The notes beneath the pieces were generated by a model. That model made no database searches. It was given only the letters and a program-made list of their open reading frames with translations, and was not told the DNA's origin. From IMG/VR virus record IMGVR_UViG_3300030102_007626, positions 35,562 to 99,561 of that record: a stretch of 64,000 nucleotides of DNA, one strand, 5' to 3'. Positions 13,622 through 63,997 of this stretch are shown here, in pieces. This DNA is from a virus. Numbering within the stretch: position 1 is the first letter of the stretch; each line of letters begins with the position of its first letter. Position numbers and translations under genes: made by a program.

Positions 13622-14416
13622 ATGAAAAAAGTAAAAATATCTCACGAAGTACCATTTTGTTTATTAAGTAAAAGTCTTGAATTTAATGACTATGATTATT
13701 GTTTACCTCATTTATTAGATCAAAATGAAGAGTATAGAACGTTTTTTTATAATGTTAAAAGTATAGATAGATATGTTGTAATGGATAATTCACTACATGA
13801 ATTAGGGGAAGCATACAATACAGAACGTTTAATGTATTGGATTAAAGAAATTAAACCTAATGAATTTATAGTACCTGATGTTTGGGAAAATTATAGTGAA
13901 TCAGTTAGAAATGCTAAAATATGGTCTCAAATTGAATTACCTGAAGGAGTAACTAAAGTTGCAGTAGTACAAGCTAAAACAAAACACTATGCAGCATTAT
14001 GTACTCAAGTGTATAAAGATTTAGGATATAAAAAAATAGCATATTCATACGGTGCTTCATATTATAATGATGTTTGTCCTCACCCAAATAAAGATTTTGG
14101 TAAAGCAATTGGTAGATATATGGTTATAAATGATTTAATGAAAGATAGAATATTATCTCCAACAGATAGAGTACATCTATTAGGTACTGCTTCTCCCATT
14201 GAATTTGGATTATATAAAGATATGGAATGTATTGAATCAATAGATACATCAAACCCAGTAATGGCTGGTATTGAACAAAAAATGTATTTTGATTTAGGTT
14301 TACCTCATAAACCAGAGGCAAATATGAATAATTTTCAAGATATAGAAGAAAAAGATGCTAATTTAGAGTTTATAGAGTATAATGTTAAAAAGTTTCGTGA
14401 AATAAATGGATTATAG
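13622..14416 (+). CDS. dpdA: DpdA-like DNA deazaguanine transglycosylase
   Basis: The product (264 aa) looks like a short phage member of the TGT/DpdA superfamily, which swaps guanine for a 7-deazaguanine base in DNA. Family-like features are MDNSLHELGEAY with Asp55 in the base-recognition position, EFIVPDVW near 81, VAVVQ near 113, HLLGTASP near 185, and ESIDTSNP with Asp208 as the candidate nucleophile. No zinc-binding tail is visible. The assignment rests strongly on context, because genes for making preQ0 (QueC, QueD, QueE, FolE2) follow within 4 kb. Confidence 0.72.
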   Translation: MKKVKISHEVPFCLLSKSLEFNDYDYCLPHLLDQNEEYRTFFYNVKSIDRYVVMDNSLHELGEAYNTERLMYWIKEIKPNEFIVPDVWENYSESVRNAKIWSQIELPEGVTKVAVVQAKTKHYAALCTQVYKDLGYKKIAYSYGASYYNDVCPHPNKDFGKAIGRYMVINDLMKDRILSPTDRVHLLGTASPIEFGLYKDMECIESIDTSNPVMAGIEQKMYFDLGLPHKPEANMNNFQDIEEKDANLEFIEYNVKKFREINGL

Positions 14417-14444
14417 CTTGGAGATTATAAGTTTTTTTCTTATA
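14414..14444 (+). promoter_or_regulatory. possible promoter, CTTGG-type variant
   Basis: TAGCTTGG, then TTCTTATA 17 bases after the first hexamer, precede the gene at 14464. The layout matches the elements at 29976, 33398 and 51178. The upstream box overlaps the dpdA stop region. Confidence 0.35.
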
Positions 14445-14463
14445 TTATCACAAATTAAAGGTT

Positions 14464-17732: not shown

Positions 17733-17788
17733 AGATATATTTGGATATTATTAAAAAATTTTTTATATTAACATAAATAAGTTATTAA

Positions 17789-21157: not shown

Positions 21158-21420
21158 TGGCACTTTCACCACAATCAATTAGAAAAAATGTTCAAGTTAA
21201 ATTTGATGATGTTATAGTAGATAAACAAACTATAATTGAAAGAAGTGAATCTTGGACAGAAAAACAAGAAATATTATTTAAAAAATTCCTTAAACAAGGA
21301 GGTAAATGTAAAATACAAGGTGTTAAGATAGAAGTAGTTCCACCTCATGAAGTACTTACCTCAAAAGGAGAAAAACCAAGTGGTAAAATGGTAGCACCTG
21401 GAATTGACCAAAGATTTTAA
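21157..21420 (+). CDS. 87-residue ORF inserted between polymerase halves
   Basis: The ORF overlaps the stop of the first polymerase gene by one base and ends just before the second part. The product is lysine-rich, with a helix (WTEKQEILFKKFLKQGG) and a strand-rich end. It has no intein, homing-endonuclease or polymerase motif that I can recognise. It may be a cargo gene left by the event that split the polymerase, or a small partner of the assembled enzyme. Confidence 0.7.
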   Translation: MALSPQSIRKNVQVKFDDVIVDKQTIIERSESWTEKQEILFKKFLKQGGKCKIQGVKIEVVPPHEVLTSKGEKPSGKMVAPGIDQRF

Positions 21421-21421
21421 A

Positions 21422-22354
21422 ATGAAGCATATAGAAGACGTACCATGGATGATTTGTGATGAAGGTGATGTAAACTACTGTGCTTATGTAGACACAGATA
21501 GTAATTATTTTCATGCTGAACCTATACTAAAACACTTCTATCCTGATTTTGATAAAATGTCTGATGAAGATAAGGATGAAAAACTTGAAAAAGTAGCCCT
21601 TAAATATCAAGATATTATTACAGATTCTTATAACACATTGGCTAAAGAATGTTTTAATGTTCCTACTCATAGACTTGAAATGAAAACTGAATGTGTAATT
21701 AGATCAGCCTATTTTAGAAAAACTAGAAGATATGCTCAATGGATTACTAAACAAGAAGGTATAGTAAAAGAGTCACTTGATATAAAAGGCCTTGAATTTA
21801 AAAAGGCAAATTTTCCACCTGTATTAGGTAAATTTTTTAAAGACATTTTAATTAATGTTTTGAAAGGTTCTACACAAACTGACATAGATCAAAAAGTTAA
21901 AGAATTTAAAAAACAAATATTAAATGGAGAAATACCTTTAGTTAAATTAGGTAACCCAACAGGAGTAAAAACATTAAACAAATATATGGGGCGTAAACCC
22001 AAAGCAGGTGAAATGTTTACTCAAATGACTAAAGGTGCTCCTGTAAGTGCTAAAGCAGCTGCTGTGTATAATGATTTAATTAGGTTTTGGAGATTAAATA
22101 CTAAACATTCTTATATAGCACAAGGTGATAAAATTAAATATATCTATTTAAAACCAAACCCATACCAGATAGATACATTAGGGTTTTTAGATTTTGATTT
22201 ACCATCTAAAATAGAAGAGTTTATGGAAAAATATGCTGATAGACAAAAGATATTTGATGCTATATTACTTAATAAATTAGAAGGTTTTTATGACGATTTA
22301 GGTTGGTCATTAAATTTAAACCCATATAAAGACAAGTTTTTTAATTTTAGTTAG
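21422..22354 (+). CDS. gp43: DNA polymerase B, C-terminal part (motif C and thumb)
   Basis: The ATG at 21422 follows the stop of the intervening ORF by one base and is preferred to an in-frame TTG at 21404. The product (310 aa) carries the catalytic motif C YVDTDSNYF with DTDS at residues 24-27, then the thumb with TRRYAQW. The C-terminus ends in an aromatic peptide (YKDKFFNFS) that resembles a sliding-clamp-binding tail. The clamp gene follows. It must pair with the 19394 product to make a complete polymerase. Confidence 0.92.
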   Translation: MKHIEDVPWMICDEGDVNYCAYVDTDSNYFHAEPILKHFYPDFDKMSDEDKDEKLEKVALKYQDIITDSYNTLAKECFNVPTHRLEMKTECVIRSAYFRKTRRYAQWITKQEGIVKESLDIKGLEFKKANFPPVLGKFFKDILINVLKGSTQTDIDQKVKEFKKQILNGEIPLVKLGNPTGVKTLNKYMGRKPKAGEMFTQMTKGAPVSAKAAAVYNDLIRFWRLNTKHSYIAQGDKIKYIYLKPNPYQIDTLGFLDFDLPSKIEEFMEKYADRQKIFDAILLNKLEGFYDDLGWSLNLNPYKDKFFNFS

Positions 22355-24061: not shown

Positions 24062-25998
<1,937 letters not shown>

Positions 25999-29773: not shown

Positions 29774-29976
29774 AACACTCACAACTAAAACAACTTATTA
29801 AAGAAGAAATACGTAGCGCAATTAATGAAAATGGTGGTTGGGACTATGACTTAATGGAACAGATAGTAGAGGATGTTGAACAATTAGATAGTGAAATTGG
29901 AAAATATGATGATGATTACATTTTATATACGATTAATAGTATTATAGATCAACTAAATAAATTAAAAAATAAATAA
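29770..29976 (+). CDS. small leader-like acidic protein (68 aa)
   Basis: The product begins MKHSQLKQLIKEEIRSAINENGG, a helical, charged N-terminus related in style but not in sequence to the neighbouring leaders. The rest is acidic and helical (YDLMEQIVEDVEQLDSE). It is the last gene before the clamp-loader promoter region. Confidence 0.65.
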   Translation: MKHSQLKQLIKEEIRSAINENGGWDYDLMEQIVEDVEQLDSEIGKYDDDYILYTINSIIDQLNKLKNK

Positions 29977-30001
29977 AACTTGCCTATTGGTAAAAGTTTT
30001 T
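29975..30001 (+). terminator. weak terminator-like hairpin
   Basis: AAAACTT and AAGTTTT pair around GCC-TATT-GGT, followed by TTTTTG. The stem is AT-rich with a small bulge, so termination is uncertain. It overlaps the promoter-like element for the next gene. Confidence 0.4.
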
Positions 30002-30006
30002 GTATA
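29976..30006 (+). promoter_or_regulatory. possible promoter, CTTG-type variant
   Basis: AAACTTGC, then TTTGTATA 17 bases after the hexamer AAACTT, precede gp44 at 30028. Layout and spacing match the GGAATA class, with a different upstream box. Confidence 0.45.
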
Positions 30007-30027
30007 ATTAAGTTATAAAAATAAGTT

Positions 30028-33397: not shown

Positions 33398-33423
33398 AAG
33401 CTTGGCCTAGCCAAGCTTTTTTT
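33398..33423 (+). terminator. rho-independent terminator
   Basis: AAGCTTGGC, loop CTA and GCCAAGCTT form a perfect 9-bp stem followed by a T run. It ends the leader-gene region. Confidence 0.88.
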
Positions 33424-33428
33424 GTATC
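33398..33428 (+). promoter_or_regulatory. possible promoter overlapping the terminator
   Basis: AAGCTTGG and TTTGTATC, separated by 17 bases from the hexamer AAGCTT, overlap the terminator hairpin and lie before the ATG at 33437. The layout matches the CTTG-type elements at 29976 and 51178. Confidence 0.35.
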
Positions 33429-33436
33429 ATATAGTT

Positions 33437-50850: not shown

Positions 50851-51189
50851 ATGGAAAGTATGGCAACTGAAATTAGTGTTTTAAATGCTGAAGAATTTGA
50901 ACAGTTAATACATGATAAAGATATTCGTATTGCTAAAGGTTTAGTTAATACTATTTTAAAAAATTTAAAAAAACCAAAAAAACATTATCACGCATTAACT
51001 ATTTTAGTAGTTCAAGAACAAACTGTGTATGACATAACAGTTGAAAAAAAGGAATTTTTAAATACTCTAGAAACTAATTTGCCTATTTTTGAAAAACAGG
51101 AAATGTATGAAGAGTGTGCTGAAATTGTAAAGGCAATAAAATATATTAAAAATAAGCCTAAAAGAGGAAGACCAAAAAAACTTGGATAA
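50851..51189 (+). CDS. unrecognised protein with C-terminal AT-hook (112 aa)
   Basis: The product has a helical, mixed core and a C-terminal tail KPKRGRPKKLG with an AT-hook core. It is one of five AT-hook proteins here. A Met at 50860 is an alternative start. Confidence 0.68.
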   Translation: MESMATEISVLNAEEFEQLIHDKDIRIAKGLVNTILKNLKKPKKHYHALTILVVQEQTVYDITVEKKEFLNTLETNLPIFEKQEMYEECAEIVKAIKYIKNKPKRGRPKKLG

Positions 51190-51208
51190 GTAAAAATTTC
51201 TTTGTATG
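51178..51208 (+). promoter_or_regulatory. possible promoter, CTTGG-type variant
   Basis: AAACTTGG, then TTTGTATG 17 bases after the hexamer AAACTT, precede the gene at 51228. The hexamer is identical to the one before gp44 at 29976, at the same distance. Confidence 0.45.
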
Positions 51209-51227
51209 TTTTTATAAAATTAAGGTT

Positions 51228-51656
51228 ATGCCATTATTTGAGTTTTCAAATTTAAACAAGTACGGAAATTTAAGAACTAGATTAGTATATAGAGAAAGTT
51301 CCCAATTTAAATTTTATCCAAAAGGATTAGGAAGGTTTGTAGGTGTGAAACGTTTTAAATATGAATATGTTCACCCATATATGTCTCCTGCTTTACTTGA
51401 TATAGGAGATAAAAAATACCTTGTACCTGATTGGAAAGAAGTGGACCCAAACACTACACTAGATGATATTAATTGGGTTAAACCTACCAAACCAGAACCA
51501 AAAGTAGAACCTAATTTATTTAAATTTAAATCAAGTTCTAGTGATGCTGTATACACAGTAAGAAAAATAATGGATAGTTATAAATGTAATTGTCCTGGGT
51601 ATTGGAGGTCTAAAACTAGGGAATGTAAACATATTAAAGAATTAAAAAATAAATGA
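51228..51656 (+). CDS. SWIM-like zinc-finger protein (142 aa)
   Basis: The product has a basic, aromatic N-terminal half and a C-terminal motif YTVRKIMDSYKCNCPGYWR followed by CKHI. This is the CXCX(n)CXH pattern of SWIM zinc fingers, which mediate DNA or protein binding. It overlaps the next gene by four bases. Confidence 0.68.
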   Translation: MPLFEFSNLNKYGNLRTRLVYRESSQFKFYPKGLGRFVGVKRFKYEYVHPYMSPALLDIGDKKYLVPDWKEVDPNTTLDDINWVKPTKPEPKVEPNLFKFKSSSSDAVYTVRKIMDSYKCNCPGYWRSKTRECKHIKELKNK

Positions 51657-53839: not shown

Positions 53840-53899
53840 TTCTTCTTTGGTAATCTAAAGATTTTTTCATATATTTTAATAAATAAAAATTTTTAAAAA

Positions 53900-54730: not shown

Positions 54731-54948
54731 GCAAAGGGAGACCCTTAGAAAAGAAGATTACCACAGTTATTGTTTATAAAAAACCAACTGGAAAGAAATA
54801 TTGGATGTTAACTACAGAAAGTGGAGTTGATGATATTATTAATTCTAGAAAACGAGATCCTTTATTACCTAGTAATTATGAAATAATAGAAATAGGGATT
54901 GGTAAATCATTTATTGAGCAATATAAAAAACAATATAACATCAAATGA
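54727..54948 (+). CDS. unrecognised small protein (73 aa)
   Basis: The product is basic at the start with a strand/helix alternation (TTVIVYKKPTGKKYWMLTT). No motif is recognised. It overlaps both neighbours by four bases. Confidence 0.62.
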   Translation: MSKGRPLEKKITTVIVYKKPTGKKYWMLTTESGVDDIINSRKRDPLLPSNYEIIEIGIGKSFIEQYKKQYNIK

Positions 54949-55154
54949 AACAGTTTTATAAAAATGGTAATGAATATTATTTTGTTCATAGAGATATTAG
55001 GATTTCCCACTTTACAGATAAAAATGGAGTACTAAATATGGATAATGTTAAAATATGGAGGGATGGGTTAAATGAAGTTGATCATGTTTTACGTACTGAT
55101 TCTCACTTTTTGTTTGTAGAAACAATTAAAGATGCTCAAATAGTAGAGGAATAG
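54945..55154 (+). CDS. unrecognised small protein (69 aa)
   Basis: The product is His- and aromatic-rich with strands (YYFVHRDIRISHFTD, FLFVETIKDAQIV). No motif is recognised. Its stop lies inside the GGAATA box of the next promoter. Confidence 0.62.
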   Translation: MKQFYKNGNEYYFVHRDIRISHFTDKNGVLNMDNVKIWRDGLNEVDHVLRTDSHFLFVETIKDAQIVEE

Positions 55155-55178
55155 TTTTTTAAATTTTATTTTTGTATA
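55148..55178 (+). promoter_or_regulatory. GGAATA-N17-TTTGTATA promoter-like element
   Basis: GGAATA (55148-55153), 17 bases, TTTGTATA (55171-55178), 20 bases before the ATG at 55198. It is one of twelve elements with identical spacing. Confidence 0.7.
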
Positions 55179-55197
55179 TTTCATTCAAATTTAAAGA

Positions 55198-55407
55198 ATG
55201 AAATTAGTTTTAAATAAAAAAGAAATTGAAGAACCTGTCAGAAAATTCATTGTATTAAATGAATACTGTCAGGTTTTTTGTGGACTTAAACATGGATTAC
55301 CAGCATTTAGTGATAATATTGATGATGCTAAACCATTAGAAAACCAACGTCAAGTTGAAATGATCCAACGTGGGACTTTATTTAAATTAGAAAAAAGTTA
55401 TCTTTAA
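55198..55407 (+). CDS. unrecognised small protein (69 aa)
   Basis: The product has a strand-rich start (PVRKFIVLNEYCQVFCGLKH) and a short helical end. No motif is recognised. It has its own promoter-like element. Confidence 0.62.
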   Translation: MKLVLNKKEIEEPVRKFIVLNEYCQVFCGLKHGLPAFSDNIDDAKPLENQRQVEMIQRGTLFKLEKSYL

Positions 55408-55408
55408 A

Positions 55409-55439
55409 GGAATAGAGTTTTAAAATAAGAGTTCGTATA
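55409..55439 (+). promoter_or_regulatory. GGAATA-N17-TTCGTATA promoter-like element
   Basis: GGAATA (55409-55414), 17 bases, TTCGTATA (55432-55439), followed by ATATAGTATAAATTTAAA and the ATG at 55472. Confidence 0.75.
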
Positions 55440-55471
55440 ATATAGTATAAATTTAAAAAATAAAATAAGTT

Positions 55472-56293
55472 ATGAAAGTTACTCAAAGAGTTATTAAAAC
55501 AGGTAAAAGAGGTCGCCCAAGAAAAGTTCAAAATTTGACCCCGGTCCCATCATTAATTGATTTTGACCAAATTACAAAATTAAACAAATTAGATATTGAT
55601 CCTAAAATGCTAGAATCAATGAAAACAGGTTTACGTAATGTAGATCAATTATTTTCATTTGAAGGTGGTATACCATGTGCATCAAATATTATGGCAATAG
55701 GTGATCCAGGTGTAGGAAAAACATCAATTATGTTAGATTTAGTTGCTGCTGTTCAAAATAAAGGTAGAAAATGTTTATTTATTTCTGCTGAAATGGGTAG
55801 AAAACAAATGTTTAAATATACAAAACGTTTTCCTCAATTTGGATTAGTTGACACATTATTTACATCTGATTTCATGAGTTTTAATATGAAAGACGTTGTT
55901 GAACAAGCATTAGATCGTGGTTATGATTTAGTATTAATTGATTCAATTGCTGAAGTGATTGAAGGTGTTCGTGATGATAATGGTTGGGATAGAAAAACCG
56001 CTGAAGGATGGTTAGTTGAAACTTGTGTTAGAAATAATAAAGGTGAAAATAAAGAAGATAAATATACTTCATTCCTATTGATTCAACAAGTTACTAAATC
56101 AGGTGAATTTGTAGGTTCAAATAAATTAAAGCACATGACTGATGCATTACTTGAAATGCGACGTGAATCTGATCGTGATGGTGGTGGTGCTTATATGTCA
56201 TTTCAGAAAAACCGTAATGGTAGAGCTGAGGATAGAATGAATTTCTTCCTAACAAATAATAAAATTGAATATTCAGTAATTGTAAGTGAATAA
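55472..56293 (+). CDS. RadA/RecA-like ATPase with N-terminal AT-hook
   Basis: The product (273 aa) has an N-terminal GKRGRPRK AT-hook, then a RecA-fold core with Walker A GDPGVGKT near 77, an Asp-containing Walker B (LVLIDSIAEV) and a late QKNRNGRAEDR segment that recalls the KNRFG motif of RadA. It is distinct from the UvsX at 781 and lacks a zinc finger and Lon domain of full RadA. It may load or remodel recombination or replication complexes. Codon use here is somewhat less AT-biased than its neighbours. Confidence 0.75.
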   Translation: MKVTQRVIKTGKRGRPRKVQNLTPVPSLIDFDQITKLNKLDIDPKMLESMKTGLRNVDQLFSFEGGIPCASNIMAIGDPGVGKTSIMLDLVAAVQNKGRKCLFISAEMGRKQMFKYTKRFPQFGLVDTLFTSDFMSFNMKDVVEQALDRGYDLVLIDSIAEVIEGVRDDNGWDRKTAEGWLVETCVRNNKGENKEDKYTSFLLIQQVTKSGEFVGSNKLKHMTDALLEMRRESDRDGGGAYMSFQKNRNGRAEDRMNFFLTNNKIEYSVIVSE

Positions 56294-56294
56294 T

Positions 56295-56495
56295 ATGAAA
56301 TTAGACCCAATTATAGAGGCAAGTAACCTATCCCTCGAATCAAAACATTTAATAAATCGTTTATTAAAGATAGAGTTCGGGGGGAATTGGGATTTACTCT
56401 TAAAAGATATGGAAGAACATGCTGTAAGTGATGAAGAATATGAACTGGCAGCAGAAATTAGAGATTACTTAAAAAAATATAGTGAAAATGGCTAA
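56295..56495 (+). CDS. small protein with UVR-like helix pair (66 aa)
   Basis: The ATG at 56295 is preferred to a GTG at 56286 that would overlap the upstream gene. The C-terminal half (VSDEEYELAAEIRDYLKKY) resembles the UVR motif used by UvrB/UvrC and chaperone regulators for protein contacts. The next gene overlaps the end. Confidence 0.55.
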   Translation: MKLDPIIEASNLSLESKHLINRLLKIEFGGNWDLLLKDMEEHAVSDEEYELAAEIRDYLKKYSENG

Positions 56496-56853
56496 GAAAG
56501 AAAAAAATATTATTGAAAAAAAGTGGTTAACAATTAAAACCAAATCAAAAGAAGATAATTACGATTTAAAAGAACTAGACCACTTAACCTGTGATTTAAT
56601 AGCACATCTAGCTCAATTAACAGATAAAGGTATAACTGATATAGATGGAACATCCATTGATATGTACAAAGATAGAGTATGGTGGGTTGTAGAAAAAATA
56701 GGATTATTACCTGAATATAAAGATGAAGATGATAATGTTGAAGAAGAAATAGTTGATGATTGGGAATCATATGAAGAAGATGATTTTGATCTAGAAGAGG
56801 AAGAATTATCTGTTGGTAGTATGAAAAAATTAAAGGAATGGGATTTTAAATAA
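56488..56853 (+). CDS. unrecognised acidic protein (121 aa)
   Basis: The ATG at 56488 is preferred to the in-frame GTG at 56482. The product has a basic start, a helical core (HLTCDLIAHLAQLTDKG) and a strongly acidic tail (YEEDDFDLEEEEL). No motif is recognised. Confidence 0.62.
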   Translation: MAKKEKNIIEKKWLTIKTKSKEDNYDLKELDHLTCDLIAHLAQLTDKGITDIDGTSIDMYKDRVWWVVEKIGLLPEYKDEDDNVEEEIVDDWESYEEDDFDLEEEELSVGSMKKLKEWDFK

Positions 56854-56865
56854 AATTTTCGTATA
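56835..56865 (+). promoter_or_regulatory. GGAATG-N17-TTCGTATA promoter-like element
   Basis: GGAATG (56835-56840), 17 bases, TTCGTATA (56858-56865), before the ATG at 56898. The box lies inside the end of the previous gene. Confidence 0.7.
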
Positions 56866-56897
56866 ATACAATTATAAAAAAAATAAAAAAATAAGTT

Positions 56898-57095
56898 ATG
56901 AAAAAGTATATTGGTAAAACTATTCAATTATTCCCTAATGACTCTCAGGAAAAGATAGGTATAGTGAGAGAGGTTTTTGGTGATGGTGTAGAGGTAATAA
57001 TTACACGATTAGGTGATACATCTTTTTATTCCAATTTAAAGGTTGGGGATGTTATGTACTATCCATTATCAAAGTTAATATTTAAATTAAAATAA
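56898..57095 (+). CDS. unrecognised small beta-rich protein (65 aa)
   Basis: The product has alternating strands (KIGIVREVFGDGVEVIITRLG) suggestive of an SH3-like or similar small barrel. No family is recognised. Confidence 0.62.
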   Translation: MKKYIGKTIQLFPNDSQEKIGIVREVFGDGVEVIITRLGDTSFYSNLKVGDVMYYPLSKLIFKLK

Positions 57096-57098
57096 AAA

Positions 57099-57191
57099 AT
57101 GACTACATTATTAATAATAAGTTGGGTATTTGCCACATTCATGTTAGCAGGATGGGCTATTAGATATGAAAGAAAAAGGAGAAAAAAATGA
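57099..57191 (+). CDS. 30-residue single-TM peptide
   Basis: The peptide is one hydrophobic helix (LLIISWVFATFMLAGWAI) with a basic tail (RYERKRRKK). Its stop overlaps the next start (ATGA). Confidence 0.5.
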   Translation: MTTLLIISWVFATFMLAGWAIRYERKRRKK

Positions 57192-57418
57192 TAAGAAAAA
57201 AACAACCACCTTGGAAAAGAGAAGTAATAATTGACCTAACTGGCCCAGATGGTAATGCATTTGCATTAATGGGTTATGCAAGACGATTTGCTAGACAGTT
57301 AGGATATTCAAAAGAAGATCAAGATCAACTCCTAGAATTAATGACATCAGGGGATTATGAAAATTTAATAGAAGTATTTGATGATCATTTTGGTTCATTT
57401 GTAATACTAGAAAGATGA
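57188..57418 (+). CDS. unrecognised small protein (76 aa)
   Basis: The product has a strand (EVIIDLTGPDGNAFALMGYA), a helix with basic residues (RRFARQLGYSKEDQDQL) and an acidic end. No family function is known to me. It overlaps both neighbours by four bases. Confidence 0.62.
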   Translation: MIRKKQPPWKREVIIDLTGPDGNAFALMGYARRFARQLGYSKEDQDQLLELMTSGDYENLIEVFDDHFGSFVILER

Positions 57419-57675
57419 GTAATTGCTATCCAGATCAAAGAAGAGGAATAACACCTAGAGAAGTAGTAATCGATAAACTAGATAATGTTATAGGAAGAAA
57501 GTTTTCAACAAATATTTCCCCAACAACAAAAGCTAGATTGTTATATTATGAAGGTGACAAAGCATACTATGAAATACTAGAATATGATAAATGGCCTAAA
57601 TATAATATGTGCGCTGGTGAAGTGTTTTATTTACCTACTCATATGGCTGTTACAATGACTCCATTAGAGGAATAG
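57415..57675 (+). CDS. unrecognised small protein (86 aa)
   Basis: The product is mixed, with strands (YYEGDKAYYEILEYDKW) and a hydrophobic end. No motif is recognised. It ends inside the GGAATA box of the next promoter. Confidence 0.62.
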   Translation: MSNCYPDQRRGITPREVVIDKLDNVIGRKFSTNISPTTKARLLYYEGDKAYYEILEYDKWPKYNMCAGEVFYLPTHMAVTMTPLEE

Positions 57676-57699
57676 AATTTTAAATAAGGTTTTTGTATA
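57669..57699 (+). promoter_or_regulatory. GGAATA-N17-TTTGTATA promoter-like element
   Basis: GGAATA (57669-57674), 17 bases, TTTGTATA (57692-57699), 23 bases before the ATG at 57723. Confidence 0.72.
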
Positions 57700-57722
57700 T
57701 TATAATTATAAAAAAATAAGTT

Positions 57723-58271
57723 ATGAACGATTTAGAAGATAAGTATTGGAAACAAATTGAAGAACTAGAATGGTACACTGATAGTTTTATTAGTGATGGG
57801 GATTATGGCAGAATTAAACAACAATTAATAGATAATTTCACTCCCTCAGAAATAAAACAACTTGATGGTTTTGTTCGCAACAAAGTAAATGAATTAGGTA
57901 AACGATTCCATAATGATTGGCTAGGAAACCCAGGTATAGATGTTGGTGAAGATAGTTGGGGTGATTTACGAAATGAGGTTGTAGGTAGAGGAAAAGAATT
58001 CTATGAAAACATTACAGTAGCAAAACTTCAAGAAATGGCTGATAATAATGATTACAATGAAAGTTTTGGATATTGTTTTCATATTACATTTTATGATGAA
58101 AAAAGTGAAATGGAAAAAAGATCCCAATTTCAACTAAATAAACCAAAACGAATTGATGAGTTTATAAAGAAAATAAATATGTTATATGATGAATATCATG
58201 CTGAACTTTATCAAGGTGAGGTTTATAGCTATTTAATAAAATTAATAGAAGAAGCTAAAAAATTAAAATAA
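57723..58271 (+). CDS. unrecognised helical protein (182 aa)
   Basis: The product is charged and helical with aromatic clusters (LGKRFHNDWLGNPGIDVG). No catalytic motif is recognised. It is one of the larger proteins of this small-gene region. Confidence 0.65.
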   Translation: MNDLEDKYWKQIEELEWYTDSFISDGDYGRIKQQLIDNFTPSEIKQLDGFVRNKVNELGKRFHNDWLGNPGIDVGEDSWGDLRNEVVGRGKEFYENITVAKLQEMADNNDYNESFGYCFHITFYDEKSEMEKRSQFQLNKPKRIDEFIKKINMLYDEYHAELYQGEVYSYLIKLIEEAKKLK

Positions 58272-58277
58272 TAAATT

Positions 58278-58355
58278 ATGAATGAATGTAAAAATTGCCA
58301 CGAAACAGAGTTATATGGAGATGAAATATGCCCTGATTGTGGAAGAGAAGGTTAA
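58278..58355 (+). CDS. 25-residue zinc-ribbon peptide
   Basis: The peptide has CKNC and CPDC separated by 11 residues, a minimal zinc-ribbon pattern. It starts six bases after the previous stop in the context AATTATG. A second zinc-ribbon-like peptide lies at 59971. Confidence 0.55.
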   Translation: MNECKNCHETELYGDEICPDCGREG

Positions 58356-58377
58356 ATATAGTTTCTCCTGTACAAGA

Positions 58378-58408
58378 GGAATTGGTTTTACAGAAGATTT
58401 TTCGTATA
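58378..58408 (+). promoter_or_regulatory. GGAATT-N17-TTCGTATA promoter-like element
   Basis: GGAATT (58378-58383), 17 bases, TTCGTATA (58401-58408), then AATACAGTATAAATTTAAA and the ATG at 58446. Confidence 0.72.
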
Positions 58409-58445
58409 ATACAGTATAAATTTAAAAAAAAATAAAATAAAAGTT

Positions 58446-59276
58446 ATGTTTACAGATCAAAATTTAAAAGAGTTAAAATTTTTAAGTAATGATGAAATTA
58501 GAGAAATAGCACCAGCAGTGTTTACTGAAACGCCTGCCTCTAATGTTTCAAAACATTACACACATATCCCAACAGCACAAGTGCTAGAAGATATGAGCAA
58601 ATTAGGTTGGGGAGTAGTAGATGCCCAACAAGTTAAAGCACGTAAGAATACCACTAAGGGATTCCAAAAACACCTATTAACGTTTAGAAATCCTGATGTT
58701 GTTATTAATGGTAAAGATGGAGATACAGTATTTCCACAAATCCTATTAACAAATAGTCATGATGGTAAAAATGCATTTACATTTACAGCTGGTTTATTTC
58801 GACTAGTATGTTCAAATGGATTAGTTATTGCTGATAAAAAGTTTGAGGACGTTAAAATGCGTCACATGGGTTATACATTTGAAAATTTGCAAGTGCAAAT
58901 TAAAGAAATGGTTGAGCGTTTGCCACTAACAGTTGATTCAATGAATAAAATGAAAGCAATTGAGTTAGATAAAAAGCAAATGAAAGAATTAGCTCAAAAA
59001 TCGCTTACAACTCGATTCACTGAGGATCAATTGAAAGTAGCAAAAATTAATTTAGATGAAATAATCAACCCAGTTCGTGATGAAGATAAAGGTAATGATT
59101 TATGGAGTGTATTCAATGTAATACAGGAAAAAATTATTACAGGTGATTTTTCATACCTATCAGGTGCTAGATCACGTAAAGCACGAGAAGTTAAAAACTT
59201 TAAACAAGACATGGATATCAACAAGAAACTATTTGCAATGGCAAATGAGTTGGTACCACAAGAAATCGCTTCATAA
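58446..59276 (+). CDS. DUF932 phage/plasmid-like protein (276 aa)
   Basis: The product matches the DUF932 layout: SKHYTHIPTAQVLEDMSKLGW near 35, HLLTFRNPD, a core with ILLTNSHDGKNAFTFTAGLF and RLVCSNGLVI near 113, and a helical end. The function is unknown; such proteins are carried by phages and plasmids. Codon use is less AT-biased than its neighbours. A strong terminator follows. Confidence 0.78.
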   Translation: MFTDQNLKELKFLSNDEIREIAPAVFTETPASNVSKHYTHIPTAQVLEDMSKLGWGVVDAQQVKARKNTTKGFQKHLLTFRNPDVVINGKDGDTVFPQILLTNSHDGKNAFTFTAGLFRLVCSNGLVIADKKFEDVKMRHMGYTFENLQVQIKEMVERLPLTVDSMNKMKAIELDKKQMKELAQKSLTTRFTEDQLKVAKINLDEIINPVRDEDKGNDLWSVFNVIQEKIITGDFSYLSGARSRKAREVKNFKQDMDINKKLFAMANELVPQEIAS

Positions 59277-59287
59277 CCGATTCTTTT

Positions 59288-59325
59288 CCACCAAAGGGCT
59301 CAAAACGAGCCCTAGGTGGTTTTTA
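59288..59325 (+). terminator. rho-independent terminator
   Basis: CCACC and GGTGG enclose a second stem AGGGCTC/GAGCCCT around an AAAAC loop, followed by TTTTT. It is the most stable hairpin in this region. Confidence 0.85.
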
Positions 59326-59330
59326 ATTAA

Positions 59331-59361
59331 GGAATAAAGGTTATAAAATATTTTTTGTATA
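59331..59361 (+). promoter_or_regulatory. GGAATA-N17-TTTGTATA promoter-like element
   Basis: GGAATA (59331-59336), 17 bases, TTTGTATA (59354-59361), 22 bases before the ATG at 59384, directly after a terminator. Confidence 0.75.
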
Positions 59362-59383
59362 TTACAATTATAAAATAAAGGTT

Positions 59384-59539
59384 ATGAAAAAAGTTTATAT
59401 AGTCTATAGTGAAAAAGGAAATATAGGTAAATCAATTGAGGTCTTTAATGAAGAAGAAGATGCCGCTAGATATGCTAGTATGAATGGTTTACAAGTTATA
59501 GAAAAATCATTATGGAAAGATTTAATGGAATATAAATAA
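59384..59539 (+). CDS. small mixed protein (51 aa)
   Basis: The product has a strand-helix layout (KVYIVYSEKGNIG, EEEDAARYASMNG). No motif is recognised. It has its own promoter-like element. Confidence 0.6.
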   Translation: MKKVYIVYSEKGNIGKSIEVFNEEEDAARYASMNGLQVIEKSLWKDLMEYK

Positions 59540-59544
59540 AAGTT

Positions 59545-59874
59545 ATGAGTGAATTTAATCAATTATGTGTATGGCCAGGTACGGTTGTAGGAGATAGTAA
59601 AAAAATCCAAAAAGATTTTGTTAAGTATTTCAAAGATGAAATGGGTGTCACAGTAAAATATGAAACAGAAGTTAAAACATTACCTGACACACCAGAGTGT
59701 ACTGAAACAGGAGGTAGAAATGATTTATTTTTCTATATTGCAGATGATGATATAGGGAAATTTGCAGTACCACGTTTACAAATGGGTATTCGTTGGTGGG
59801 AAGATGTTTTAGGAAATGGAGGTGGTAATTTGTACACAAAAGAATTCCTAGAAAAATACCCAAAAGGTTGGTAA
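59545..59874 (+). CDS. unrecognised protein (109 aa)
   Basis: The product is aromatic and Gly-rich (QLCVWPGTVVGDSKKIQ, GIRWWEDVLGNGGGN). No family function is recognised. It starts in the AAAGTTATG context. Confidence 0.65.
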   Translation: MSEFNQLCVWPGTVVGDSKKIQKDFVKYFKDEMGVTVKYETEVKTLPDTPECTETGGRNDLFFYIADDDIGKFAVPRLQMGIRWWEDVLGNGGGNLYTKEFLEKYPKGW

Positions 59875-59875
59875 A

Positions 59876-59974
59876 ATGAAAAGAAACGCAACAAATATAA
59901 TTGACTGGATTGAATATTGGGATCATTTTGATTATGGATTATATCTAGCAATATTAAAAGCAAAACAACAATGA
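59876..59974 (+). CDS. 32-residue peptide
   Basis: The ATG is one base after the previous stop and the stop overlaps the next start (ATGA). The peptide is aromatic and helical (WIEYWDHFDYGLYLAIL). Function unknown. Confidence 0.5.
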   Translation: MKRNATNIIDWIEYWDHFDYGLYLAILKAKQQ

Positions 59975-60081
59975 AACACACATATAAACAAATAGACAAA
60001 GATGGTACAGTTGAATGTACCAAATGTGGATTAAGAAACTCAGATCCTACTAAAGAGGATTCAATAAAATGTAAAAAATGA
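59971..60081 (+). CDS. 36-residue zinc-ribbon-like peptide
   Basis: The peptide has one CTKC pair and a later single cysteine with basic residues. It overlaps both neighbours by four bases. It may bind zinc; function unknown. Confidence 0.5.
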   Translation: MKHTYKQIDKDGTVECTKCGLRNSDPTKEDSIKCKK

Positions 60082-60290
60082 AAGAATTAAAACAACGATT
60101 AGAATATTTCGCAAGAACACTTAAAGAACATACAGAATATGTTGATTATAATTCTACAGGTCACTTAGAACAATCAGCAATTAGAACAAAAGAACAAACA
60201 ATGAATGAAATAGGTGATATGCTTCTAGAAATTCTAGAATTGGATAATAAAACTTTCAAATCTTGGTTAGCTCAGGAAGAGGATGAATAA
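60078..60290 (+). CDS. small acidic helical protein (70 aa)
   Basis: The product is helical and charged (QRLEYFARTLKEHTEYV). No motif is recognised. Its end encodes part of the next promoter box. Confidence 0.6.
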   Translation: MKELKQRLEYFARTLKEHTEYVDYNSTGHLEQSAIRTKEQTMNEIGDMLLEILELDNKTFKSWLAQEEDE

Positions 60291-60305
60291 AATTATTTTC
60301 GTATA
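60275..60305 (+). promoter_or_regulatory. GGAAGA-N17-TTCGTATA promoter-like element
   Basis: GGAAGA (60275-60280), 17 bases, TTCGTATA (60298-60305), then TTACAGTATATTTAAA and the ATG at 60330. Confidence 0.72.
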
Positions 60306-60329
60306 TTACAGTATATTTAAAGAAAAGTT

Positions 60330-60500
60330 ATGAAAAGGAAAAAAGATTATAAACAAAAAATTGTATTTCACTCAAATCGTTTACATGAAGGGTTAAACGC
60401 AGCACCGTCTGAGTATAATAGTGAAAATATAAAAAAATCACTAGAAAGTTTAAATTATTTTGTAGAACGTCAATTAGAAGTAAATAAAGGTTATGAATAA
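60330..60500 (+). CDS. small basic protein (56 aa)
   Basis: The product is basic and helical. It has its own promoter-like element, and its stop overlaps the next ATG by eight bases. Function unknown. Confidence 0.55.
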   Translation: MKRKKDYKQKIVFHSNRLHEGLNAAPSEYNSENIKKSLESLNYFVERQLEVNKGYE

Positions 60501-60663
60501 AGATTACATAGATAGAATGGAAGGTTTAGCCAATGTAAATGAACTTAACCAATTAAAAGATTTAATACTAATACTAGGTGGAGAATGGGCTAATGATGGG
60601 TTTGAAAATGAAGATATTGTAAAATATTTTAAATATCTAGTTGATAAATTAATAAAAAAATAA
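60493..60663 (+). CDS. small acidic protein (56 aa)
   Basis: The product is helical with an NELNQLKDLILILGGEW segment. It overlaps the previous gene. No motif is recognised. Confidence 0.55.
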   Translation: MNKDYIDRMEGLANVNELNQLKDLILILGGEWANDGFENEDIVKYFKYLVDKLIKK

Positions 60664-60672
60664 ATAAAGATT

Positions 60673-60846
60673 ATGAATAAAGAAGCAGAAACATTAACAA
60701 TCAAAATGAAATTTGGAATGAGAGAAGAAATGTCATCACTTATTCTATTGTTACGAGATGGTAACTATGAAGGACAGAAATTCGCATCAGAAAGATTAAT
60801 GCAAATAGCAGATCAAATTGATAAGTTTAATAAAGAAAATGAATAA
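60673..60846 (+). CDS. small protein (57 aa)
   Basis: The product is mixed helical with a Met-rich start (TIKMKFGMREEMSSLIL). Its stop overlaps the next ATG. No motif is recognised. Confidence 0.55.
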   Translation: MNKEAETLTIKMKFGMREEMSSLILLLRDGNYEGQKFASERLMQIADQIDKFNKENE

Positions 60847-61012
60847 ACAACTATTAACAAAATTAAAAGAGGATTGGAATAAATGGCAATCCAAAGTACA
60901 CCCTGAAGATAGAATGTCGTTTATTGAATATGCTGAAGATCTAGGTACATATCAGGGTTATGATATTGAAATAGATTTTAGGGGTAATATAGAGTTTTTA
61001 ATTAGGGAATAA
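60839..61012 (+). CDS. small acidic protein (57 aa)
   Basis: The Met at 60839 overlaps the previous stop and is preferred to an upstream one at 60818 inside the preceding gene. The product is aromatic and acidic. Its last codons form the next GGAATA box. Confidence 0.55.
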   Translation: MNKQLLTKLKEDWNKWQSKVHPEDRMSFIEYAEDLGTYQGYDIEIDFRGNIEFLIRE

Positions 61013-61036
61013 GATTATTAAACTTAATTTCGTATA
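61006..61036 (+). promoter_or_regulatory. GGAATA-N17-TTCGTATA promoter-like element
   Basis: GGAATA (61006-61011), 17 bases, TTCGTATA (61029-61036), 21 bases before the ATG at 61058. Confidence 0.75.
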
Positions 61037-61057
61037 TTATATTAAATAAAAAAGGTT

Positions 61058-61303
61058 ATGACAAAAGATTTTAGTAAAGAATTAGCAAGAATACAAAGAG
61101 ATAGCTTTGTAGAAAGACAAATACAATTATATGCTGATTATCTCCCAAAACGATTCAAAGAAATACAAAAAGAATCAGAAAAACTAGATTGGAGAGATAG
61201 AAACACATATGAAGCAGGCTGTCTTAGAGTATTATTAGAAGCAGCAATTGAACAAATTGTGGCAGTAAATAAAAATCTTGAGGAAAGAAGAAATGAACGA
61301 TAA
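61058..61303 (+). CDS. small charged helical protein (81 aa)
   Basis: The product is helical with coiled-coil potential (KRFKEIQKESEKLDW). No motif is recognised. It overlaps the next gene by 11 bases. Confidence 0.6.
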   Translation: MTKDFSKELARIQRDSFVERQIQLYADYLPKRFKEIQKESEKLDWRDRNTYEAGCLRVLLEAAIEQIVAVNKNLEERRNER

Positions 61304-61424
61304 AATAAAATTAACAGAAGCACTTCCACACATTAAGCATATTGCTAAATGTTATGGATTGAAATTAAATTTATTATCAGACTTTAAAATAGCTAAAGTG
61401 ATTTGGGCTAGAAGTTTAAATTAA
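61293..61424 (+). CDS. 43-residue basic peptide
   Basis: The peptide is basic with hydrophobic segments (LPHIKHIAKCYGLKLNLL). It overlaps the upstream stop. Function unknown. Confidence 0.5.
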   Translation: MNDKIKLTEALPHIKHIAKCYGLKLNLLSDFKIAKVIWARSLN

Positions 61425-61430
61425 AAAGAT

Positions 61431-61643
61431 ATGGCAATTAGTAAAGAAATGATTCAGGAATCAAAAATTAATGTAATTAGATCATTAGAGTATTATTTAA
61501 ATGCTACTGAAAATGAAATTCATCAATTTGTTAAACGAATTGAAGATGAAAATTCAGAAAATTGGACTTGTGGTTTTGCAGATGAATTGGTTCCTAATTT
61601 TGAAAAAATGAGGCAAGAAAATAAAGATAATAAACCATTTTAA
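61431..61643 (+). CDS. small acidic protein (70 aa)
   Basis: The product is helical and acidic with a single cysteine (NWTCGFADELVPNFEKM). No motif is recognised. Confidence 0.58.
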   Translation: MAISKEMIQESKINVIRSLEYYLNATENEIHQFVKRIEDENSENWTCGFADELVPNFEKMRQENKDNKPF

Positions 61644-61657
61644 AATAAAAAAATTAA

Positions 61658-61688
61658 GGAATAGAGGGTTTAAAGTTTTTTTCGTATA
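61658..61688 (+). promoter_or_regulatory. GGAATA-N17-TTCGTATA promoter-like element
   Basis: GGAATA (61658-61663), 17 bases, TTCGTATA (61681-61688), before the ATG at 61711. Confidence 0.78.
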
Positions 61689-61710
61689 TTACATCAAAAT
61701 TAAAAAGGTT

Positions 61711-62016
61711 ATGACAATTAAGGAAATTAAAGAACAGTTACAATTTAAAAAAGTAGTATTTAACGTTAAAGGACTTAAAGATTATCAAGAAGGACCTGAT
61801 GGTAAATATGGTTATTACCCAACTAGGTTTAGAACACATGGTAGTGAAGGAAAACATGGAACGAGTGCAATATTTAAAGGTTTTTCAGATGGAATGAATG
61901 TAACTAAGTTTGGTCCTACTTGTGTTACGTTATACACTTATAATATGTTAGGTAAAAAAACAGTAGGCAAAATAAAATATGCTGATGTAACAATATTAGA
62001 AGATGAAACAGATTAA
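61711..62016 (+). CDS. unrecognised Gly/aromatic-rich protein (101 aa)
   Basis: The product has strands and Gly-rich loops (YQEGPDGKYGYYPTRFRTHG, GPTCVTLYTYNMLG). No family is recognised. It overlaps the next gene by 14 bases. Confidence 0.62.
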   Translation: MTIKEIKEQLQFKKVVFNVKGLKDYQEGPDGKYGYYPTRFRTHGSEGKHGTSAIFKGFSDGMNVTKFGPTCVTLYTYNMLGKKTVGKIKYADVTILEDETD

Positions 62017-62116
62017 AGTAACACAGAAAGAAATTAATGACGCAACGCGTCCAAGTATTCAAAAGAATAAAAAGAAATATACTAGAAAAAAGAAACATAA
62101 AAATGGAGAAGAATAA
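62003..62116 (+). CDS. 37-residue basic peptide
   Basis: The peptide is very lysine-rich at its end (KNKKKYTRKKKHKNG). It overlaps both neighbours. A nucleic-acid-binding role is possible. Confidence 0.48.
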   Translation: MKQIKVTQKEINDATRPSIQKNKKKYTRKKKHKNGEE

Positions 62117-62405
62117 TTTATATATAACGAATTTATGTGTGGGGCATAAGTCAATTTATTATCAAACACCTGAAGTACCTAATAGGACTGTTGGGGATGA
62201 TATTAATGAATTGTTAGAAGATAAATATACCCACAACATTAATATGGAATTTTTTTATCTTGATAGTACTGGTGACAAGCATTATGGATCAGTAATGGTT
62301 AATAAAATAAATGATTATCAAGATTTTGTAATGGAAAATGATAATTTCTATGAAGAAACACAGTTAACAGATGAAAATTTAATTGATTTATTTGAATTTG
62401 ATTAA
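62103..62405 (+). CDS. unrecognised acidic protein (100 aa)
   Basis: The ATG at 62103 overlaps the basic peptide by 14 bases and is preferred to an upstream in-frame start at 62037. The product is acidic with strands and aromatic residues. Its stop precedes the next GGAATA box. Confidence 0.58.
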   Translation: MEKNNLYITNLCVGHKSIYYQTPEVPNRTVGDDINELLEDKYTHNINMEFFYLDSTGDKHYGSVMVNKINDYQDFVMENDNFYEETQLTDENLIDLFEFD

Positions 62406-62436
62406 GGAATATTTTTCTAGAAAAAAAATTCGTATA
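62406..62436 (+). promoter_or_regulatory. GGAATA-N17-TTCGTATA promoter-like element
   Basis: GGAATA (62406-62411), 17 bases, TTCGTATA (62429-62436). The spacer contains the palindrome TTTTTCTAGAAAAA (62412-62425). It precedes the ATG at 62468; CTAGAA also occurs in the spacer at 63017. Confidence 0.75.
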
Positions 62437-62467
62437 TTATTGTATATTTAAAAAAAAGATTTAAAAA

Positions 62468-63016
62468 ATGGAATTTAAAAAAGAGTATAAAGATTGGAGT
62501 TTAGATGATAGAGTTGTTAGTTGTGGTTTATATAATTTTGAAGATGGTTATATAAGATGTAGTGATTATGAAAATGGTCCTTACGAATCTAAATTTAGAA
62601 ATGAAGATGGGGAATTAGATTATAAAGTAGGAATTGATTATTTAGATACTATTAAAAGTGAAGATGATTTAATGTGTCGGATATTAGATAAGGAAGAATT
62701 TAAAAATAATGTGGATGAGGATGGTGAATTTTATGATGGATATGGTGATGTATTTACTAAGTGGGATGATTTATTTGATAAATATTTTAGTGATTGTGAG
62801 GAGTGGGAAGTATTTGGAAATGAAATGAAAATTGTTGTTGATAAAGAAAATAAAAGTGTAAAGATAATGGCGGGTCCCTTAGTAGCAGGATGTTGGGCAG
62901 AAGGAAAAAGTAGTTATCATGCAATTGAATTTTGTGAAAAAAGTGGGGAGATATATAGGAAATTTTCTAGAAAAAGATTGGAATTTTTGATTGATAATGG
63001 TTATATTTTATGTTAA
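62468..63016 (+). CDS. unrecognised acidic protein (182 aa)
   Basis: The product is strongly acidic and aromatic (DGEFYDGYGDVFTKWDDLFD) with a basic C-terminal segment. The acidic, DNA-mimic-like composition could be of interest but no family is recognised. Confidence 0.62.
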   Translation: MEFKKEYKDWSLDDRVVSCGLYNFEDGYIRCSDYENGPYESKFRNEDGELDYKVGIDYLDTIKSEDDLMCRILDKEEFKNNVDEDGEFYDGYGDVFTKWDDLFDKYFSDCEEWEVFGNEMKIVVDKENKSVKIMAGPLVAGCWAEGKSSYHAIEFCEKSGEIYRKFSRKRLEFLIDNGYILC

Positions 63017-63047
63017 GGAATATTTTAATTAACTAGAAGTTCGTATA
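63017..63047 (+). promoter_or_regulatory. GGAATA-N17-TTCGTATA promoter-like element
   Basis: GGAATA (63017-63022), 17 bases, TTCGTATA (63040-63047), then TTATAGTATATTTAAA and the ATG at 63075. Confidence 0.78.
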
Positions 63048-63074
63048 TTATAGTATATTTAAAAAAAGAAAGTT

Positions 63075-63605
63075 ATGTTAAGTGAAAAAGTATTTAAAAG
63101 CGGTTATGATGTTACAAGTAATTCAAAACTAGCAGGTGGTGAAAAAAATGATTGTTTTGTTAGGGCTTGTTCTAATGCATTTGATGTTAGTTATGAAGCA
63201 GCACATAAATTTGTAGCGGAACGATTTGATAGAAAAAACGGTAAAGGAACTAAAATGTGTAATCTTAGAATGAAAGATTTACAAAATGAAGTTCTAGAAT
63301 TTCAACCTGAAGGACAATTAAGTTTGTTTAGTGATAATGGTGGAAAACGAATTAAAGTAAAACACATTGGTGATACACCTAAAGTAGGTGGACGATTAAT
63401 TAATAAGGACTATACACATAAAAAAGTAGCATATACAGTTAAAACATTTATGCAACGATTTAGAAAAGGAACTTATATATTACTAGTTAATAAACATGCC
63501 TTAGTATGTAAAGGTGGTGTAATATTTGATAATGGTGATATGCAGTTTAATGGTTATAGACGACCTGTTGAATCAGCATTTAAAATAGAGGAAGAGGTTA
63601 AATAA
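63075..63605 (+). CDS. papain-like cysteine protease-fold protein (176 aa)
   Basis: The product shows a possible catalytic order: Cys27 in EKNDCFVRACSNAF, His141 in LLVNKHALVCKGG, and Asp152/Asn153 in VIFDNGD. This is the Cys-His-Asp/Asn order and spacing of papain-fold peptidases and related amidases. The target is unknown. It is one of few proteins in this region with a recognisable fold. Confidence 0.5.
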   Translation: MLSEKVFKSGYDVTSNSKLAGGEKNDCFVRACSNAFDVSYEAAHKFVAERFDRKNGKGTKMCNLRMKDLQNEVLEFQPEGQLSLFSDNGGKRIKVKHIGDTPKVGGRLINKDYTHKKVAYTVKTFMQRFRKGTYILLVNKHALVCKGGVIFDNGDMQFNGYRRPVESAFKIEEEVK

Positions 63606-63620
63606 AACCTCTTTCGTATA
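63590..63620 (+). promoter_or_regulatory. GGAAGA-N17-TTCGTATA promoter-like element
   Basis: GGAAGA (63590-63595), 17 bases, TTCGTATA (63613-63620), before the ATG at 63644. It overlaps a hairpin (63592-63613). Confidence 0.72.
63592..63616 (+). terminator. possible terminator overlapping a promoter
   Basis: AAGAGGTT and AACCTCTT form an 8-bp stem with the stop codon in the loop, followed by only TTTC, so termination is uncertain. The stem lies inside the spacer of the promoter-like element. Confidence 0.4.
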
Positions 63621-63643
63621 TTATAGTATAAATAAAGAAAGTT

Positions 63644-63997
63644 ATGAGTTTTAAATATAAAGCCCATTTATGGGATGATAAAAAAGAAGTTATGAGTAAA
63701 TATCAAGAGTTATTAAAAAATCCATTTTACATGCATTATAAAACAGTTAAGGAAAATGCTAGAGAAGTAATATTCTATGTAGTGAGTTGTATGTGTGATA
63801 ATAAATACACACTACGATTCAGAAAGAATGATAATGATGAGTTTAAAATGAGTGGGATGGGATTTGCTTTAAGTAATTTTCAATTCGAACACAAACCATT
63901 TGAAATAGAATGGATAGCAGATGAAGGTGATTGGATTGGAGTAAAAAACATGATTAACACGGGAACTGTTAAGGTTGAAAAAGTAATAAGTAGATAA
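63644..63997 (+). CDS. unrecognised protein (117 aa)
   Basis: The product is complete within the window. It is mixed, aromatic-rich, with strands (REVIFYVVSCMCDNKYTLRF) and an EWIADEGDWIGVKNM segment near the end. No family is recognised. Confidence 0.65.
   Translation: MSFKYKAHLWDDKKEVMSKYQELLKNPFYMHYKTVKENAREVIFYVVSCMCDNKYTLRFRKNDNDEFKMSGMGFALSNFQFEHKPFEIEWIADEGDWIGVKNMINTGTVKVEKVISR

Follow-up and report, generated by a model that had tools for sequence, protein, structure and literature searches.

A clade-restricted class of predicted phage promoters that pairs a host-type -10 element with a phage-specific upstream box

Twelve copies of a bipartite element ahead of small genes

A 64,000-nucleotide (nt) stretch of the virus record IMGVR_UViG_3300030102_007626, here called the window, carries ahead of a run of small genes a repeated element of two short boxes, GGAATA or a close variant and TTYGTATA, held exactly 17 bases apart. 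The locus raises the question of which RNA polymerase would read such an element, and which part of it belongs to the host and which to the phage. The window comprises bases 35562-99561 of the 155,669-bp record, and the array runs on beyond the window end. All twelve copies listed by the first-pass annotation were found, and in 12 of 12 cases the next ATG is the gene start that had been assigned. Each site precedes an open reading frame (ORF) of 51-276 amino acids (aa), with a predicted leader of 11-29 nt. We refer to these elements as class I promoters; positions are those of the window unless the record is named.

55148 to 55180, + strand, class I promoter 1: GGAATA-N17-TTTGTATATT, before ORF 55198-55407, predicted leader 11 nt
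55409 to 55441, + strand, class I promoter 2: GGAATA-N17-TTCGTATAAT, before the RecA/UvsX-like gene 55472-56293 (Pfam RecA/KaiC)
56835 to 56867, + strand, class I promoter 3: GGAATG-N17-TTCGTATAAT, before ORF 56898-57095
57669 to 57701, + strand, class I promoter 4: GGAATA-N17-TTTGTATATT, before ORF 57723-58271
58378 to 58410, + strand, hybrid promoter 5: GGAATTGG-N15-TTCGTATAAT, GGAA and host-type TTGG in one frame, before the DUF932 gene 58446-59276
59331 to 59363, + strand, class I promoter 6: GGAATA-N17-TTTGTATATT, before ORF 59384-59539
60275 to 60307, + strand, class I promoter 7: GGAAGA-N17-TTCGTATATT, before ORF 60330-60500
61006 to 61038, + strand, class I promoter 8: GGAATA-N17-TTCGTATATT, before ORF 61058-61303
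61658 to 61690, + strand, class I promoter 9: GGAATA-N17-TTCGTATATT, before ORF 61711-62016
62406 to 62438, + strand, class I promoter 10: GGAATA-N17-TTCGTATATT, before ORF 62468-63016
63017 to 63049, + strand, class I promoter 11: GGAATA-N17-TTCGTATATT, before ORF 63075-63605
63590 to 63622, + strand, class I promoter 12: GGAAGA-N17-TTCGTATATT, before ORF 63644-63997; the upstream ORF ends within the promoter

The strict form GGAATA-N17-TTYGTATA matches the window eight times, always on the + strand (shuffle mean 0.00). With the upstream box shortened to GGAA (GGAA-N19-TTYGTATA), the whole record contains 23 matches, with none on the reverse strand and none for the reversed-pattern control. 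All 23 copies lie on the coding strand within record positions 90709-106140, 15.4 kb of small genes, a restriction that agrees with the earlier proposal of a promoter class serving a regulon of small genes. The two-box search that had been suggested for the whole genome and its relatives gave the same picture, with sites clustered ahead of small genes and on the coding strand only. Directly past the window end (about record 99562-99571) is a run of ten Ns, and a promoter TTCGTATA follows at record 99573, its upstream box unreadable.

The spacing, which had been called invariant, proved to be single-valued. Across twelve related contigs, analysed in full or in large part, GGAAT-N18-TTYGTATA occurs 155 times on the + strand and never on the - strand, whereas with any other gap between 8 and 29 the count is 0-1. 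This is in line with the suggestion of a promoter class read by one RNA polymerase geometry. We aligned 286 distinct class I sites from these contigs into an anchored logo, numbered on the assumption that TATATT takes positions -12/-7 of a host promoter. The logo reads A at -40, then G, G, A, a position with A (74%) or C (18%), T and A, so that the corrected upstream box is AGGA(A>C)(T)A at -40/-34. The spacer has a conserved TAAAA at -26/-22. Downstream, the logo shows T TTYG TATATT at -17/-7, with TTYG and TATATT together spanning -16/-7, and an A-rich leader after it. Both originally described boxes are thus present, with altered limits: the invariant part of the first is GGA (-39/-37), GGAATA being merely its commonest form, and the second extends to TATATT.

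On these grounds we take the element to be a real, clade-wide class of phage promoters. In our reading it is the principal kind of promoter in the small-gene (early or middle) region, and gene content and synteny suggest early or middle timing.

A second, host-type class in the same frame

The contigs with class I also contain TTTGG-N15-TTYGTATATT, which we call class II, with 45 sites at N15 and at most one at any other spacing. Flavobacterium phage immuto has 34 sites of its own TTG(G/C) form, with the same N15 spacing. Promoters of the Bacteroidota primary sigma factor consist of TTTG and TAnnTTTG, the -33 and -7 elements (PMC6847099). The TTTG of class II ends exactly 20 nt before TATA, and because TTTG-N20-TATA is the published Bacteroidota sigma-A arrangement (PMC6847099), we regard class II as host-type. 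Six examples in the window are the following.

14414 to 14446, + strand, class II promoter: CTTGG-N15-TTCTTATATT, before gene 14464
17737 to 17769, + strand, class II promoter: TTTGG...TATATT, before gene 17789
29976 to 30008, + strand, class II promoter: CTTGC...TATAAT, before the clamp-loader-like gene 30028
33398 to 33430, + strand, class II promoter: nested terminator hairpin AAGCTTGGCCTAGCCAAGCTTTTTTTGTATCAT at 33398-33424, -11.0 kcal/mol, before the PD-(D/E)XK nuclease gene 33437 (Pfam)
51178 to 51210, + strand, class II promoter: before gene 51228-51656; strong promoters of this class precede nearly all of its orthologues
53843 to 53875, + strand, class II promoter: TTTGG...TATATT, before gene 53900, upstream of the class I array

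On a common scale, the TTTG of class II falls at -36/-33 and the GGA of class I at -39/-37. The base at -34 is always T in class II and is A in 72% of class I sites, which argues that the TTG contact is lost in class I and not simply weak. Five sites carry both words (GGAATTG hybrids, GGAATTGG), the one at 58378 among them.

The two classes exchange places before orthologous genes. The uvsX gene has a class I promoter in this phage and class II promoters in contigs G017 and G029; the DUF932 gene has the hybrid here and class II (TTTGG-type) promoters in most relatives; a gene for a protein with AT-hook-like repeats is preceded by class I in eleven contigs and by class II in G026; and the promoter class of the gene at record position 90759 also differs between relatives. 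Phage immuto and contig G029 have host-type promoters only.

The first-pass annotation had judged the element not to match the Bacteroidota consensus. This holds for the GGA half, which is phage-specific, but not for the downstream half: TTYG-TATATT is shared with class II and with immuto and sits in the sigma-A -7/-10 register. Read in this way, the sequences indicate that only the -33 half is replaced, by the GGA box, and that the -10 half is of host type.

Distribution in viruses and bacteria

A pattern scan of IMG/VR for class I returned at least 117 stretches. Many contigs have 10-28 copies, clustered and on one strand (0-1 for the reversed control), and the many-copy viral contigs all share proteins with the clade of this phage; single-copy contigs without shared proteins look like chance matches. 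Trees of two baseplate-region genes leave room for class I to have arisen once, but did not fix the position of G026 relative to immuto.

Among 84,980 bacterial and archaeal genomes, the strict class I form had no match and the 17-base form had 14 single, scattered matches. Counts of the GGA class in 198 Bacteroidota genomes were near control, and those of the strict class II form were likewise at control level, the latter owing to the unusual constraint on the phage -10. When the -7 element was relaxed, TTTG-N20-TAnnTTTG rose above control in several Bacteroidota genomes (113 against 28 in G058; 74 against 18 in G052), while the excesses of GGAAT-N22-TAnnTTTG were small and inconsistent. Since the relaxed TTTG form is enriched and the GGAAT form barely so, in comparison genomes that are Bacteroidota rather than identified hosts, the GGA class looks phage-specific and limited to this clade.

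The phage and its probable host

The phage is of T4 type. Nearly all ORFs of the record lie on the + strand, and Pfam matches include a Gp23 capsid protein, a family B DNA polymerase, a gp44-like clamp loader and a DnaB-type helicase. The baseplate wedge protein is 46% identical to its counterpart in Flavobacterium phage immuto. The sole sigma-like ORF encodes a gp55-like protein, a late factor of the gp55 type, which matches Sigma70_r2 weakly.

The host is probably a Bacteroidota bacterium, because one of the phage proteins has a C-terminal domain of the type IX secretion kind, because the nearest cultured relative, immuto, infects Flavobacterium, and because the start sites appear to resemble the type of leader that PMC6847099 describes in F. 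johnsoniae. The secretion-type protein (7463-9865, 801 aa) ends in a Por_Secre_tail sorting signal (Pfam E 4e-08) and is odd cargo for a phage as well as a clue to host range. Elsewhere in the window, the family B DNA polymerase is apparently split (19394-22354) into ORFs of 587 and 310 aa with an 87-aa ORF between them, and orthologues of all three were seen in several related contigs. A full-length GroEL/Cpn60-type chaperonin (24353-25996, 547-548 aa, Pfam E 6.6e-65) is present here and in relatives.

Hairpins within the promoter spacers

Among 422 distinct 26-nt segments running from GGAA to TTY, 60 (about 14%) fold at -9 kcal/mol or below, compared with 1.0 expected after shuffling. The stems vary in sequence and keep their pairing, and the common loops (GTAA, GCAA, AATTAA) retain the A-A that the promoter logo prefers at -25/-24. 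Hairpins at -6 kcal/mol or below occur in 14 of 108 class II promoters (0.8 expected) and in 7 of 44 of immuto (0.4 expected); those of them that are followed by T runs look like ordinary intrinsic terminators, as in AAGCTTGGCCTAGCCAAGCTTTTTTT at 33398. The strong hairpins lie a median of 3 nt past the upstream stop codon. One case in the class I array of the window is in promoter 12.

63590 to 63615, + strand, RNA hairpin in promoter 12: GGAAGAGGTT-AAATAA-AACCTCTTTC, -11.8 kcal/mol, proposed terminator of the upstream gene

Terminator-like hairpins placed exactly between both boxes were seen at 33398-33430 and 63590-63615, in L056, L025 and L135, and in others. Such a hairpin would probably act as a terminator for one gene while lying within the promoter of the gene that follows. 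At about 80% of class I sites no hairpin of this kind is seen, yet both boxes and the exact spacing are kept, so the promoter is independent of it.

Candidate readers of the GGA box

Three phage proteins may be considered as readers of the GGA box, all of them as leads only. Two are encoded in the window, as follows.

54945 to 55154, + strand, candidate regulator gene, 69 aa: just upstream of the class I array, member of a family of 69-79 aa
51228 to 51656, + strand, candidate regulator, 142-aa protein: SWIM-like C-x-C...C-x-H zinc motif, class II promoter

Of the 12 class I contigs, 11 encode a member of the family of 69-79 aa, whereas the four control phages have none, which makes this family the best candidate by distribution. 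The SWIM-like protein is a candidate because its class II promoter, present nearly always, fits what is expected of an early activator; it was not found in contig G016, has no Pfam or PHROG match and gave a poor structure model (predicted template modelling score 0.40). The third lead is the small protein with four AT-hook-like GRP repeats (record 105294-105626; L011:5733-6065), which all 12 of the class I contigs encode; a homologue is also present in G030, a contig without class I. AT-hook-like motifs are also present on the UvsX-like protein (55472) and on other small proteins (50851) of this phage, the genome of which is 29% GC. A search of ten conserved proteins against PHROGs gave no match, and a domain search of the phage proteins detected no sigma region 4.

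Which polymerase, and which factor

We propose, with a probability of roughly 0.5, that class I promoters are used by the host RNA polymerase with its own -10 contacts, the -33 contact being replaced by a phage-specific one with the involvement of a phage factor. In this model, host RNA polymerase with its primary sigma factor would contact TTYG-TATATT in the normal -10 register, and the phage-specific AGGA(A/C)TA box at -40/-34 would substitute for the host -33 TTTG contact without a change of helical frame. A small phage protein, expressed from the host-type TTTGG promoters, would most likely bind the GGA box or else remodel sigma region 4 to accept it, much as MotA/AsiA do at T4 middle promoters. 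In many copies the terminator hairpin of the upstream gene would lie inside the 17-bp spacer. The proposal draws on two boxes at a fixed spacing, two classes in one frame, restriction to a clade and swaps between orthologues, all visible in the sequences themselves; from these we infer transcription starts at class I sites and a phage-encoded reader of the box. A narrower version, which we hold tentatively and a little short of even odds, is that a phage protein of unknown family (that of 54945 or 51228) redirects the Bacteroidota primary sigma by means unrelated to MotA/AsiA, swapping the -33 contact clade-wide, with terminators inside the promoter spacers.

Several observations weigh against a phage factor. 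Profiles for MotA and AsiA (PF09114, PF09010) matched none of six records, although very distant homologues could escape them. For the reader there are candidates only, and the 69-aa family, in spite of a confident model (predicted local distance difference test 89), matched no fold in the PDB at E<=0.001. Moreover, orthologous genes swap class freely, so both classes may share a time window and the unaided enzyme. The GGA box might be an alternative -33-region element that the host holoenzyme accepts unaided, by way of either its sigma region 4 or an accessory subunit of the host; class I promoters would then simply be strong, early ones suited to one particular group of hosts. This is possible, if rather doubtful. 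It would account for the geometry and -10 that are identical in both classes, for the hybrids and the easy swaps, and for the synteny of the class I region with the host-type array of immuto; early T4 promoters, too, work without a phage factor (PMC6024815). Against it, even relaxing the -7 element brought no clear enrichment of the GGA class in Bacteroidota genomes, several of which do show enrichment of the TTTG form, though the actual hosts may be unsampled. With the strict class II form at control level too, the lack of GGA-class matches in host genomes is weak evidence by itself.

Other readers of the element are improbable. A host alternative sigma factor of the extracytoplasmic function (ECF) type, exploited by the phage, might recognize GGAA(T/C) and CGTATA, and GGAAC-like -35 words, CGTA/CGTC-like -10 words and fixed spacing are indeed typical of ECF promoters. 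We consider this quite unlikely: GGAAT-N20-CGTA exceeds the usual ECF spacing by 3-4 nt, the -10 and the frame belong to the co-occurring sigma-A-type class, and no such class was seen in host genomes. Slightly less likely still is a phage-encoded RNA polymerase, or a specificity factor delivered with the virion, that recognizes the boxes as soon as infection begins. A clade-specific box would fit such a factor, and several structural proteins have no known domain; but no RNA polymerase domain turned up in the ten large proteins scanned, from a contig that may be incomplete, Gp23 and DNA polymerase B mark the genome as T4-type, and the -10 is common to host-type promoters. The least probable reading is that the element is no promoter but primarily an RNA feature, a hairpin for termination or processing that lies between GGAA and TTYC. 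The excess of folding spacers and their conserved pairing speak for a role in RNA; the boxes and spacing kept at hairpin-free sites speak against it, as do hairpins in the same place within class II promoters.

Comparison with known promoter systems

Literature searches returned no paper on this promoter class, and promoter use by Bacteroidota phages is little described. As had been stated at first, the element is not the T4 late box: class I has two boxes, whereas the late promoter is a single -10 octamer (TATAAATA) without a -35. A separate TATTTATAATA motif stands before structural genes (L009-L013 and the window; for example record 6299, 17061, 19198 and 119362) and is probably the gp55-dependent late promoter of the clade. 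We also considered the phiKZ-type early promoter (TATATTAC), which has a similar -10, and set it aside; the literature yielded no usable comparison, and no multisubunit polymerase was seen in the ten large proteins.

ECF promoters have a GGAAC-type -35 about 16-17 nt before a CGTC-type -10, with typically fixed spacing. Class I shares with them (GGAAC ... CGTC/CGTA) a GGAA-like upstream word, a CGTA-like downstream word and strict spacing, but it has GGAAT-N20-CGTATA and no other spacing, and its -10 is TATATT in the sigma-A frame. With the Bacteroidota sigma-ABfr promoters it has in common the TA..TT of the -7/-10 register and the 20-nt distance from the -33 word, class II being of this kind; unlike them, class I lacks the -33 TTTG except in a few hybrids and has GGA upstream. 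Compared with the -7 element TAnnTTTG, TA..TT is invariant in the phage, whereas T-6 and G-5 are not conserved in either class, and TTYG at -16/-13 is found instead. The array of immuto (NC_055915) likewise lies at small genes upstream of a gp55-type gene and has the fixed spacing, the -10 and some nested hairpins; its first box, however, is AGTTGC, the host -33 word, and it has no GGA class.

The closest parallel is with T4 middle promoters. In both, the host-type -10 is kept, the host -35/-33 word is swapped for a phage box, fully host-type promoters are mixed in within one genome, and uvsX belongs to the class. In contrast, the AGGA(A/C)TA box of class I lies at -40/-34, whereas the MotA box is centred at -30 (PMC2988021), no MotA or AsiA was detected in the six records searched, and the host sigma is of the Bacteroidota type. 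Class I thus appears to be like T4 middle promoters in anatomy and not homologous to them, differing in box position and in MotA/AsiA. With several hundred sites in a single clade and a host-type class to match them in the same frame, these promoters offer a ready test of which part of a promoter a phage takes over, and the short, rigid elements are potentially useful as expression parts for Bacteroidota. If a phage factor does read the GGA box, class I would be a second, independent case of the T4 strategy, in a phylum whose sigma factor and promoters differ from those of E. coli.

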